DNA from: an uncultured Kineosporia sp.
Lineage (GTDB): Bacteria; Actinomycetota; Actinomycetes; Actinomycetales; Kineosporiaceae
Assembly (NCBI GenBank): GCA_937859855.1
Contig: CALMAR010000081.1
Coordinates: 1-12,855 of the forward strand
Direction of reading: 5' to 3'
DNA length: 12,855 bases
Both the position numbers and the translations under genes were made by a program. Below the pieces are notes generated by a model. The model saw only the letters and a list, made by a program, of their open reading frames with translations, did not search any database and was not told where the DNA came from. Positions 10,056 to 12,855 of the stretch are shown here, piece after piece; the stretch's first letter is position 1; each line of letters opens with the position of its first letter.

Positions 10056-10310
10056 TCAGCGGGGGGCCAGACGCAGGGCCAGCACGGGGCACAGGCCGGC
10101 CGCCTTGCGAGCCGGGCCGGTCAGGGCGTCCGGGACCGGAGTGAGCACACCCGCTCCGGGTGCCCCGGCCGCACCGGTTCGGGCTCGGGGGTAACCCCAG
10201 GGATCGGCCTCCAGCAGCTCGGGCAGCAGTTCCCGGCACAGGCCACGGCCGTCGCAAGCGGTCCAGTCAATCATCAAAGTGGTTGCAGCCGAACCGGTTC
10301 GGGCGTTCAC
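10056..10310 (-). CDS. Small 3Fe-4S-type ferredoxin
   Basis: An 84-residue protein with the short actinobacterial ferredoxin signature: MIDWTACDGRGLCRELLPELL, an LLEADPWGYP block, then ARKAAGLCPVLALRL. The three Cys (19, 25 and 74; pattern C-x5-C...CP) match ferredoxins of this type, which bind a 3Fe-4S or incomplete 4Fe-4S cluster. The start is taken as GTG at 10310: it overlaps the NuoF-like stop as GTGA and has GGAGG six nt upstream. The internal ATG at 10274 has no RBS, and the open frame to 10346 lies inside the previous gene. The middle segment (res. 44-62) is Ala/Gly/Pro-rich and low in complexity. As last gene of the operon it probably accepts electrons from, or donates to, the NuoF-like protein. 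Confidence 0.85.
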   Translation of the reverse strand: MNARTGSAATTLMIDWTACDGRGLCRELLPELLEADPWGYPRARTGAAGAPGAGVLTPVPDALTGPARKAAGLCPVLALRLAPR

Positions 10311-11566
10311 AGCCAGCCTCCGGTATGGCCAGCCCGGGCCAGGCAACGGCCATGGCCGTGCAGCACGATGTCCGGCTCGAACACGGTCAGCGCACTGCGA
10401 ATCAGGCGCACGGTGCCGTCCGGATGGCTGCAGGCCCCTCGTCCGGCCACCAGCCCAGCCGTCCCCCGCAGCGCCGAGAGTTCAGCCGGGCCAGCCTTTC
10501 CGGCGGCCAGGTCGGCCATCTGCTGGGCCAGTTGGGGTAGCCCGAATCGGCAGGGGCCGCACTGACGGGCCGATTGAGCAGCCAGATACTTCACGATCCG
10601 GGCAGTCAGCTGGAGGCCGCAGCTGGACGACGTGATCGGGATGATCACGCCCGCGCCCACCGAAGCACCCAGAGCCGACAGCCCGTCGCGGGACAGCGGG
10701 ACGGGCAGCGCCTGCGGCAGCCGCAGCCAGCTGCCGTGATAGCCGCCGACCAGCACGGCGTCCAGTTGCCCGACTGGTACTGAGGCCGCTCGGCCGAGCA
10801 GGTCAGCCAGCGACGTGCCGTGCGGCACCTCCCAAACGGCCGGCGCCTGCGGCTGGCCTTCTGACCACACCGGATGCACCGTGGCCAGGAAAGAACCGGT
10901 TGACCCGGGCACACCCAGGCTGGCGTACCAGTCACCGCCACGGCGGGCGATCAGAGCCAGGTGGGCCAGGGTCTCCACGTTCTGCACCAGGGTCGGCCGA
11001 TCGTCGACGCCCCGGATGCTCACCCGCTGACGCGAAAACCGCGGCAGCGCAGACCCTCCCGACAGCCGGGAGACCACGGCGCTCTCCTGCCCGGCGACGA
11101 AAGTGGCCGGCGCCTCGGACACGTGCACCGCCAGCCCGTCCAGGTCCGGCCGGGCCGCCAGCGCCTGGCGGACACTGCTCACCGCATCGGGCCGGACATA
11201 CAGGCAGGCCCGGGCCGCACCGGTGGCCAGGGCGGCCAGCCGCAGGCCGTCGAGTACCAGGTGCGGGGCGCGGACCAGCAGTTGCCGGTCCTTGTCGCTG
11301 GCCGGCTCACCTTCGGCGCCGTTACCCACCACGATCGCCCGCCCGCGCGATCCGGCGGCTACCGCGCGGACCTTGATGGACGCCGGAAAGCCCGCACCGC
11401 CTCGGCCGGTCAGCCCGGAGCGCTCCAGTTCGTCCAGCACCGCCGCCGGGCTGAGCACTGGCAGGGGGCCGTAGGCCATCAGGTGCGCCTGCAGATCGGG
11501 CGCCTGAGCAGCGAAGAGGCCTGCCACCAGCTCGGAAGCGGCGGGGCGCGGAATCATGACCGTCAT
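10307..11566 (-). CDS. NuoF-like SLBB / NADH-ubiquinone oxidoreductase 51-kDa Fe-S flavoprotein
   Basis: A 419-residue homologue of the NuoF/51-kDa flavoprotein. Blocks in order: GRGGAGFPASIK (54-65, FMN/NADH site in NuoF), GNGAEGEPASDKDR (82-94 region, equivalent to NADESEPGTFKDR), GQESAVVSRLSGG (~159-171), TLVQNVETLAHLAL (~192-205), an SLBB-like region (~230-300), then the Fe-S module with Cys316, QCGPCRFGLP (Cys336, Cys339) and GRGACSHPDG (Cys379). In NuoF the motif is ESCGxCxPCR; here it is QSARQCGPCR, so the first Cys is Ala333. The start is ATG 11566, overlapping the ferric-reductase stop as ATGA, with GAGGAGG six nt upstream; the longer open frame to 11764 lies inside that gene and is rejected. 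This is a stand-alone protein, not part of a nuo operon, expected to carry FMN and pass electrons between a nicotinamide (or other) donor and the coupled ferredoxin. Confidence 0.88.
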   Translation of the reverse strand: MTVMIPRPAASELVAGLFAAQAPDLQAHLMAYGPLPVLSPAAVLDELERSGLTGRGGAGFPASIKVRAVAAGSRGRAIVVGNGAEGEPASDKDRQLLVRAPHLVLDGLRLAALATGAARACLYVRPDAVSSVRQALAARPDLDGLAVHVSEAPATFVAGQESAVVSRLSGGSALPRFSRQRVSIRGVDDRPTLVQNVETLAHLALIARRGGDWYASLGVPGSTGSFLATVHPVWSEGQPQAPAVWEVPHGTSLADLLGRAASVPVGQLDAVLVGGYHGSWLRLPQALPVPLSRDGLSALGASVGAGVIIPITSSSCGLQLTARIVKYLAAQSARQCGPCRFGLPQLAQQMADLAAGKAGPAELSALRGTAGLVAGRGACSHPDGTVRLIRSALTVFEPDIVLHGHGRCLARAGHTGGWL

Positions 11567-12165
11567 CGCGGACCTCCTCGGGCCATGGCGCTGACTGGGC
11601 GATCCAGCCGCCCCGGCGCGGGCGCTGGAACTGAAGAAGGCGCCGTCCTGCGGGTCACCAGCGCCCCCAGAACCAGAGCCACACACGCGATGTCGGTGCT
11701 CAGCATCCAGGCGGTGGTGCTGTCCGTGCCCGAGCCGATTCCATGCAGCAGGGCAACCGGCCACAGCCCGTAGGCAGCCAGATGCACCGCCCGCCAGGCC
11801 CGGCGCCCGAGCCGGTCACGGATCAGGCTGGTCGCCACGATGGCGATCACCAGATCCAGGGCCAGCGCACCCAGCCCGACGAACGCGGGCCGGTAGCTGG
11901 AACGCAACGGCAGCACCAGATCGATCAGCTTGAGCTGAGCGTAGGGATCGAAGAGCAGGGTGGTCACGTGGATGCCGAGGAACACGACCGCCAGCAGCGA
12001 CGTGCTGCGGTGCACTGAGGCAACCACCAGCCGGGACCGGCCGGTCAGGCCGCCCAGCGAACGCCCGGACCGGGTGCTGATGCCGAGCGCGACGGTCAGG
12101 GTGATCAGGATCAGGGTGACGGCACCGCTGGCTCGCGCCAGGTACCAGAGCGCTTCGGTCGTCAT
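11563..12165 (-). CDS. Ferric-reductase-like transmembrane di-haem protein
   Basis: A 200-residue membrane protein with about five to six spans (approx. 10-29, 48-72, 94-115, 127-145, 153-171). Four His in paired helices, His52/His66 (VHRSTSLLAVVFLGIH) and His128/His141 (AVHLAAYGLWPVALLH), have the 13-14-residue spacing that binds two b-haems across the bilayer in ferric reductase/NOX/MsrQ-like domains. There is no attached FAD or NAD domain, so it must receive electrons from a separate partner, plausibly the NuoF-like protein or ferredoxin of the same operon. Starts at ATG 12165 with GAGG seven nt upstream; its first base is shared with the ApbE stop (TGATG), and its stop overlaps the next gene by 4 nt. 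The tail after ~172 is Pro/Arg-rich and likely cytoplasmic. Confidence 0.87.
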   Translation of the reverse strand: MTTEALWYLARASGAVTLILITLTVALGISTRSGRSLGGLTGRSRLVVASVHRSTSLLAVVFLGIHVTTLLFDPYAQLKLIDLVLPLRSSYRPAFVGLGALALDLVIAIVATSLIRDRLGRRAWRAVHLAAYGLWPVALLHGIGSGTDSTTAWMLSTDIACVALVLGALVTRRTAPSSVPAPAPGRLDRPVSAMARGGPR

Positions 12166-12855
12166 CAGGCTGCCTCACGCTGGCCGACCGGCCAGCCGTT
12201 CAGCAGCACTGGCCGGGCATCCTGGCCGATCAGCCGGGCCGGTGTCCCGGCGTCCAGCAACATCTGCACCGCCGCCGCCCCGCGCACGATGGACGCGGTG
12301 GCCAGCATGTTGGCCTCGGCGCAGGTGCCGGCCACCACCGAGACGGTGCGCCAGACCGCCGGGGCCGGCTCACCGGTGCCGGGATCGAGGATGTGATGCA
12401 CGGTCCGGGTGCCCGCTCCGGCCCGCTGGCGCCAGGTCCGGCTCAGTGTGCTGGACGTCGCCAGCGCTCCGGAGAACAAGGAGACCGTGGCCGGCGGTTC
12501 GGCGTCGCCGTCCTGAACCAGCACCTGCCAGCCACCGCGCGGCGCCGCACCGGCCACGGCCAGATCACCGCCGAGACTGACCAGCACGCCGGCGCCCAGG
12601 CTGTCCGCGACCAGCTCGGCGCAGCGGTCGGCGGCGTACGCCTTAGCGCTGGAACCGCAGTCGAGGTGGACCCCGGCGGGCATGCTCAGCCGCGCGCCGC
12701 CACCGTGGGGCGCCTGGGTGAGCCGGATGTCCCGCCAGTCGTGCCGGACCCGGCGGGTCAGCCGGATCGGCCGCCGGACCGGCGCCCCGTCCCGCCCCGC
12801 CCCCGACCGCCGGGGGAAGGCCGGGGGGGAACCGCGCGCGCGGCGCTCGGCGGGC
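12165..12855 (-). CDS. apbE: FAD:protein FMN transferase (ApbE family), 5'-truncated by window edge
   Basis: About 229 C-terminal residues are present; the frame stays open to the right edge, so the start lies outside and the internal ATG at 12683 is not the start. ApbE moves FMN from FAD onto a Thr/Ser of target proteins, usually at the outer face of the membrane. Motifs: WRDIRL (codons near 12735), LDCGSSAKAYAAD (12663-12625, family DLGGxAKGYAAD), LVSLGGDLAV, HHILDPGTGEP and VSVVAGTCAEANMLATASIVRG. The last motif has Asn (12311-12309) where classical ApbE proteins have the Mg-binding Asp of ADAxSTA. No flavinylation target (FMN-binding domain protein) is in the window; one upstream of this gene is likely. 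The stop shares one base with the ferric-reductase ATG. The outermost ~75 nt are nearly pure G/C and translate poorly against the family. Confidence 0.87.
   Translation of the reverse strand, partial: PAERRARGSPPAFPRRSGAGRDGAPVRRPIRLTRRVRHDWRDIRLTQAPHGGGARLSMPAGVHLDCGSSAKAYAADRCAELVADSLGAGVLVSLGGDLAVAGAAPRGGWQVLVQDGDAEPPATVSLFSGALATSSTLSRTWRQRAGAGTRTVHHILDPGTGEPAPAVWRTVSVVAGTCAEANMLATASIVRGAAAVQMLLDAGTPARLIGQDARPVLLNGWPVGQREAA

Follow-up and report, generated by a model that had tools for sequence, protein, structure and literature searches.

The gene clusters closest to the locus described here are the MsrQ-like flavinylation clusters, in which a membrane cytochrome of family PF01794 occurs with apbE, the gene of a transferase for flavin mononucleotide (FMN). 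A survey reported 1797 of them, 31 with a NuoF-like gene of family PF10589, and in the part of the paper covered here they are described as broadly conserved in Actinobacteria, typically with an FMN-binding-domain gene (Meheust et al. 2021, PMC8238504). According to the same part of the paper, genes for ApbE or FMN_bind proteins were removed when they encoded neither a signal peptide nor a lipidation site, so that much of the present family may have been hidden from that survey. The subject of this study is an operon for a ferredoxin, a NuoF-like flavoprotein, a haem membrane protein and ApbE, located at positions 10056 to 12855 of a stretch of 12,855 nucleotides from an uncultured Kineosporia sp. 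(contig CALMAR010000081.1; the whole stretch is referred to as the window), together with a small gene which adjoins this operon in its relatives. The operon is conserved across actinobacteria with its electron-carrier motifs kept, and its gene content suggests that it probably moves electrons outward through the cell membrane.

With the MsrQ-like clusters the operon shares the PF01794 membrane cytochrome next to apbE; in the window the PF01794 and PF02424 genes overlap by one nucleotide. It differs from them in that the ApbE of the relatives has no visible signal segment and the small tail protein has no PF04205 domain; neither such a small protein nor a ferredoxin is mentioned in the part of PMC8238504 covered. 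The first-pass annotation of the window had noted similar gene sets in actinomycete genomes, which are in print, as far as the covered part of that paper extends, as the MsrQ-like cluster with NuoF. Its statement that no biochemical role has been characterised agrees with the literature found, but the gene set itself had already been published under that name.

The four genes lie on the minus strand of the window in the order apbE, haem protein gene, nuoF-like gene and ferredoxin gene (fd), read from right to left. The C-terminal part of an ApbE-type flavin adenine dinucleotide:protein FMN transferase (12165 to 12770; PF02424, 112 bits against a cut-off of 25.6) is followed by a ferric-reductase-like membrane protein of 200 amino acids with five predicted long helices (11563 to 12165; Ferric_reduct, PF01794, 40.9 bits), a NuoF-like flavoprotein of 419 amino acids (10307 to 11566; Complex1_51K, PF01512, 101.1 bits and NADH_4Fe-4S, PF10589, 61.0 bits) and a three-cysteine ferredoxin (10056 to 10310; Fer4_15, PF13459, 42.3 bits), all above the curated Pfam cut-offs. 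The apbE stop and the haem gene start share one nucleotide (TGATG, 12163 to 12167), and overlaps of four nucleotides join the haem gene stop to the nuoF start (ATGA, 11563 to 11566) and the nuoF stop to the fd start (GTGA, 10307 to 10310). The four overlapping genes were of the types first annotated, including a NuoF type outside a nuo operon, as no nuo genes adjoin it in the window. ApbE is truncated at its 5' end: homology to the Kineosporia babensis ApbE (58.8% identity, tblastn) starts near 12770, and the final 85 or so bases of the window (12771 to 12855, minus strand), GC-rich and in frame with apbE, show no similarity to that protein and are probably contig-end sequence of doubtful reliability.

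Co-occurrence of the four families in Actinobacteria, a survey of which the first-pass annotation had suggested, was followed in the best 80 of 568 relatives found by scanning genomes with the NuoF-like alignment, all with actinobacterial record titles, which with the window make 81 sources. Up to about 10 kb was covered on each side of a locus, 24 of the 80 loci being shorter than 21 kb. The haem gene was present in 79 sources, the ferredoxin gene in 72 and apbE in 65, which is more than chance would give, and the full order of the window, by stop position, in 62. Other arrangements were haem, nuoF and fd (5 sources), haem and nuoF (9), nuoF and fd (2), and fd and apbE both on the other strand (3). 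In a second sample, a draw of 296 genomes from the phylum with at most six candidates scored per genome, 22 genomes had a NuoF-like match at or above our chosen threshold of 285 bits, not all of which are operons. The operon form was present in at least 11 of the 296 (G001, the centre of the draw, L130, L132 to L136, L138, L147, L148 and L153, the latter at 254 bits), a lower bound from the regions read. In the regions read of L131, L142, L143 and L149 to L152, nuoF and fd stood without haem gene or apbE.

In 74 of the 80 loci a small unnamed gene precedes apbE or the haem gene. It was first seen by reading the open reading frames (ORFs) upstream of apbE, where it overlaps or abuts the apbE start; clustering the neighbouring ORFs all against all had missed it, returning shadow ORFs for the most part. 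A C-terminal pattern search found the gene in 59 of the 65 sources with apbE. The remaining six were L031 and the window, both cut by the contig end, L016, L020 and L029, whose apbE lies on the opposite strand, and L028, where the gene is lost. Its 3' end overlaps the apbE start by four nucleotides in 40 of these 59 loci, shares one base with it in five and stands apart in 14. A second search, together with inspection by eye, brought in 15 more loci, 11 of which have mycobacterial titles; in loci without adjacent apbE the gene mostly lies directly before the haem gene, and farther off in L058 and L073. Six loci were left without it, three cut by a contig edge (L025, L031 and L056) and three lacking it (L026, L028 and L066). 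In L028 (Mycolicibacterium sp. P1-5, 8461 to 9432) about the first 12 codons of the small gene read in frame into apbE, which may be a deletion or an assembly collapse.

The small protein has a basic start, one hydrophobic helix and a tail rich in Ser, Thr, Pro and Gly, usually ending in [ST]-x-[GA]-Ser-COOH. Its median length is 115 amino acids and that of the tail 74 (range about 40 to 180 residues). The N-terminal flank is more positive than the tail in 74/74 proteins, the helix call being unreliable in L007 and L033, and by this charge bias alone the tail is predicted to lie outside. The last residue is Ser in all 74; position −2 is Gly in 63 and Ala in 11, and position −4 Ser in 59, Thr in 11 and Ala in four. 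The ending [ST]-x-[GA]-S occurs in 70 of the 74, [ST]G[AG]S in 35 and the exact motif D-x-x-[ST]-G-A-[ST] in 10. The first search patterns permitted a last Thr and required Gly or Ala near the end; the invariant Ser is therefore a finding and the Gly count partly selection. Among the other predicted genes of the loci, 30 of 1015 end in [GA]S, and among the operon genes two of 64 apbE, none of 78 haem, one of 80 nuoF and two of 70 fd genes. The codons at −1, −2 and −4 vary, and a Shine-Dalgarno-like string is present in the last 18 bases of 14 small genes and absent from 60. On these controls, neither the gene overlap nor a constraint from a ribosome site explains why the proteins end in Gly-Ser.

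No Pfam family above its cut-off was matched by the 10 small proteins tested, three of which gave sub-threshold matches. A protein search with one of them, hampered by low complexity, returned a single match (P0121, a metagenome protein of 194 amino acids) consisting of the small-protein start joined to the C-terminus of a NuoF-like protein, to be read either as a natural deletion within this operon or as a chimera of it formed in assembly. The same start, helix and last residues are shared by small proteins from taxa as far apart as Mycobacterium, Streptomyces and Solirubrobacterales.

Further loci were taken from 25 regions of the phylum draw and from the second operons of two Nocardia genomes (L088 in the genome of L018, L097 in that of L039); L085, a repeat of L154, was left out of the counts. 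Twelve had a haem gene of the operon type (score of at least 103), with apbE in all except L130. In kinship the set is not independent of the first, L130 being mycobacteria-like and L154 the second operon of the genome of L001, and the small ORFs were chosen by eye, in L132 from two candidates. Nine of the 12 ended in [GA]S (L130, L132, L136, L147, L148, L153, L154, L088 and L097), and three otherwise, L134 in Cys-Ser and L135 and L138 in Tyr. In these three deep-branch proteins, whose ORFs end at 2462 (L134), 2476 (L135) and 2405 (L138) in nuoF orientation, a two-cysteine motif CYxxPSG[NS]...C[YS] replaces the Gly-Ser tail. The second operon copy of Kineosporia babensis (L085/L154, genome of L001) has a small protein ending in PTSAS, and its NuoF-like match contains one TAG. 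In L133 a small ORF ending in TGGS lies directly before nuoF, in a region without haem gene or apbE. An upstream ORF of 58 amino acids in L151, ending in MGS, was taken as a shadow ORF; it has no hydrophobic helix.

The ending of the small protein resembles the published ApbE motif D-x-x-[S/T]-G-A-[S/T], which carries FMN on its last residue, and on this likeness the proposed flavin site is based. As described in the part of a review covered here, Thr is a better acceptor than Ser, though both work, replacing the Asp has little effect, and a flavin-tag of seven residues (Tong et al.) suffices for modification, working best at the N or C terminus (PMC12052999). The tag, an ApbE motif at a protein terminus, is artificial; the small protein would be its natural equivalent, ending exactly at the acceptor residue. 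Flavinylation motifs outside an FMN_bind domain are also known from the ApbE substrates Flavodoxin_4 and FMN_red, in the latter on an extended unstructured C-terminal region, as is proposed for the tail of the small protein (mSystems 2024, PMC11334425, in the part covered). Those substrates are folded flavin-binding proteins, mostly of Firmicutes, whereas the small protein has no folded domain and has Ser as its last residue. No paper among the matches listed in the open-licence literature described a C-terminal-Ser ApbE substrate or the small protein, which is weak evidence of absence, and ApbE does not appear in the covered part of a paper on tail-anchored Tat proteins (PMC10924467). The transport idea is known in outline; the small protein with its C-terminal Ser is the part not found in the literature searched.

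The conserved His of the ApbE motif HH..DP (H154) and the metal-site Thr (T186) are each kept in 64 of the 65 ApbE sequences. Position 182 (codon 12309 to 12311), which we take to be that of the usual metal-ligand Asp, is Asn in 64 of the 65 aligned sequences, the remaining row being a gap; in nine other ApbE genes from the host genomes, seven have Asp there. A simple hydropathy test on the first 40 residues, applied to the 58 relatives with a placed start, found a hydrophobic signal segment in none; the N-terminus of the window's own ApbE is missing. Since all 58 starts lack such a segment, flavin loading in the cytosol followed by export appears likelier than loading outside. The first-pass proposal that ApbE loads an extracytoplasmic partner can be kept in part: a plausible membrane-anchored substrate adjoins apbE in the relatives, but the loading itself is more likely cytosolic. 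In Streptomyces, an ordinary FMN_bind protein with a start helix and a linker rich in Ser, Thr and Pro stands beside an ApbE without visible signal segment, so these bacteria may commonly load the flavin in the cytosol and export the protein afterwards.

The first-pass annotation had also expected an acceptor with a PF04205 domain near the operon, and this expectation was not borne out. A profile built from three proteins, which very distant FMN_bind proteins could escape, detected PF04205 in the stretches covered of only three of the 81 sources, all Arthrobacter (L012, L023 and L051), at about 14.8 to 15.3 kb, some 3.4 kb downstream of the operon. In L012 this gene lies more than 3 kb past fd, beyond a histidine kinase and beside a PF01794/PF00175 reductase gene of its own. 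In place of a PF04205 gene the relatives usually carry the small tail protein with its last Ser. Among 47 host genomes, 18 contained no PF04205 protein. Fourteen of these, partly draft assemblies, have a single ApbE, and 13 of the 14 have the small gene, the exception being the genome of L028. PF10029 (DUF2271), PF12094 (DUF3570) and PF03116 (NqrB/RnfD-type) were found in none of these 14 genomes; Flavodoxin_4 and FMN_red were outside this search. Where PF04205 does stand beside ApbE (five stretches, L081 to L084 and L087), the ApbE found there is encoded by another gene and has Asp in the metal site.

The closest matches of the window NuoF-like protein were a metagenome protein (63%) and, among the matches with a printed organism, Kineosporia proteins (57 to 61%), which points to a Kineosporiaceae-like actinomycete as the probable source. 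The window protein has the NuoF fold. In it Ala333 (10568 to 10570) replaces the initial Cys of the usual cluster motif, ESCGxCxPC, and Ala is present there in 120 of the 120 listed homologs, window copy included. C336, C339 and C379 are retained, and C316 and C408 are two extra conserved cysteines, either of which might take the place of the missing one. With 191 bits the protein missed the NCBIfam NuoF equivalog cut-off of 558.65 bits, and its four-Cys motif is incomplete. It differs from the NuoF of complex I and from HydB-type proteins in the Ala for the first cluster Cys, in C316 and C408, and in its three-cysteine ferredoxin partner. The positions that we take to be those of adenine-binding Phe residues are changed. 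The ferredoxin likely starts at GTG 10308 to 10310, and its Cys codons (10254 to 10256, 10236 to 10238 and 10089 to 10091) are kept in 72 of 72 aligned sequences, which bears out its annotation as a three-cysteine protein. The layout C-x5-C...C is presumably the spacing of [3Fe-4S] types. In seven paralogous loci (L137, L139 to L141 and L144 to L146) NuoF and ferredoxin are fused as one ORF, confirmed by Pfam for one of them, and this supports direct transfer between the two. No apbE was found in the roughly 6 kb covered for these seven loci, and their haem protein, where read, has a long low-complexity tail.

In the haem protein H52, H66, H128 and H141 are all kept in 79/79 aligned sequences, and the pairs H52/H66 and H128/H141 lie in helices 45 to 72 and 121 to 145 of a structure model. 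The model resembled NOX, STEAP and cytochrome b561 in structure matches; with bacterial and eukaryotic NOX, STEAP and cytochrome b561 it shares a transmembrane helix bundle with two His pairs, in keeping with the first-pass call of a di-haem ferric-reductase-like protein. A loop of residues 146 to 148 (GTD, 11722 to 11730) is predicted on the outside by the positive-inside rule. Of 79 sequences, 64 have GTD or GSD in this loop; the four fused-type sequences read have AGR instead, and GTD/GSD may mark a docking site of the small-protein tail.

In the pathway we propose, a cytosolic reductant, NAD(P)H (reduced nicotinamide adenine dinucleotide or its phosphate) or another hydride donor, would reduce the FMN of the NuoF-like protein, whose altered Fe-S cluster would relay the electrons to the small ferredoxin; from there they would go on to the inner and then the outer haem of the PF01794 protein. 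The outer acceptor would be the small membrane-anchored protein, to whose C-terminal Ser, at the end of a flexible tail, ApbE would link FMN, probably in the cytosol before export of the tail. The tethered flavin could then hand electrons to an outer acceptor such as Fe(III), a quinone, oxygen or an oxidoreductase. Flavinylation, its site, the topology of the tail, the electron direction, donor and acceptor are all what we infer from the sequences. We judge it somewhat better than an even chance that the whole path, from the NuoF-like protein through ferredoxin and haems to a C-terminal flavin tail as outer acceptor, is correct. That the small proteins are a new class of ApbE substrate in Actinobacteria, membrane-tethered, disordered and without FMN_bind fold, with FMN on the C-terminal Ser as in a natural flavin-tag, serving as a swinging outer carrier for this path and in some genomes as the only candidate found for the only ApbE, is a reading that we hold to be just on the likely side. 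Besides the motif likeness, it draws support from the 14 single-ApbE genomes without the known-substrate families searched, 13 of which carry the small gene.

Several observations weigh against this proposal. The small gene lies beyond the cut of the window, and its presence there is expected by analogy with the relatives, where the missing part of apbE is followed by the small gene. L026 and L066 have no small gene, and L028 has kept apbE without it. The Asp at −7 of the published motif occurs in just 12 of the 74 small proteins and the Gly at −3 in 35. The initial counts were selected on a C-terminal pattern with several ORFs picked by eye, and three of the 12 further operons end otherwise. 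Asn stands for the metal-ligand Asp throughout this ApbE clade. Modification in the cytosol would leave the tail still to be exported, and by eye the strict twin-arginine motif was not seen in the small proteins, nor were paired Arg constant. NADH as donor is uncertain because of the changes at the positions taken for adenine-binding Phe, and PF04205 proteins are encoded in 29 of the 47 host genomes.

The last count suits another reading with the same electron path, in which ApbE serves PF04205 proteins encoded elsewhere and the small tail protein is an anchor or scaffold for the haem protein or for NuoF and ferredoxin. ApbE with an FMN-binding-domain substrate is moreover the mark of all previously characterised systems in the part of the survey covered (Meheust et al. 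2021, PMC8238504). We consider this reading unlikely, though worth keeping in mind: it offers no substrate in the 18 genomes without PF04205, 14 of them single-ApbE, the ApbE genes adjacent to PF04205 are different ones with Asp at the metal position, and a scaffold could do without a last Ser that never varies. Alternatively, the C-terminal Ser motif might be a docking, processing or export signal, with ApbE modifying the outer GTD loop of the haem protein or another protein. The Ser or Thr in the GTD/GSD loop of 64 of 79 sequences and the two deep-branch small proteins that end in Tyr with a CYxxPSGN motif would fit, but the loop has no [S/T]-G-A-[S/T] pattern, while 35 of the 74 small proteins end in [ST]G[AG]S, and we regard this as improbable.

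The direction of flow is not fixed by the sequence data, so an external donor could in principle feed the flavin tail, and electrons run inward through the haems to ferredoxin and NuoF, yielding NAD(P)H. Transfer from b-type haems to NAD(P)+ would presumably be uphill without coupling, and the operon shows no ion-pumping subunit; we regard such an inward flow as very improbable. The low complexity of the small ORFs and the lack of Pfam matches above cut-off (0/10, three being sub-threshold) might even suggest GC-rich upstream sequence that is not translated. The recurrence of start, helix and last residues from Mycobacterium to Streptomyces and Solirubrobacterales with codons varying at −1, −2 and −4, and the 40 four-nucleotide overlaps and five shared bases among the 59 genes beside apbE, make this hardly credible.

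To the left of the operon, downstream of fd, the window contains a rhodanese gene and a hybrid histidine kinase (6862 to 9054, minus strand) with GAF, HisKA and HATPase domains and two receivers. The H-box of this kinase reads MSPEIRTPMN, with Pro at what we take to be the position of the phospho-accepting His, which may be a one-base change, an error or the mark of a non-phosphorylating kinase. An ORF of 393 amino acids with hydrophobic stretches (5614 to 6795, minus strand) had no Pfam match.

If the proposed role of the small protein is true, outer flavin electron transfer would exist where searches for FMN_bind or for a secreted ApbE give a negative answer, as in 18 of the 47 host genomes, and the lone ApbE of many mycobacteria and their relatives would have an explained role. 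The small protein would offer the flavin-tag method a model from nature, and an outer flavin carrier would not need to be a folded protein.

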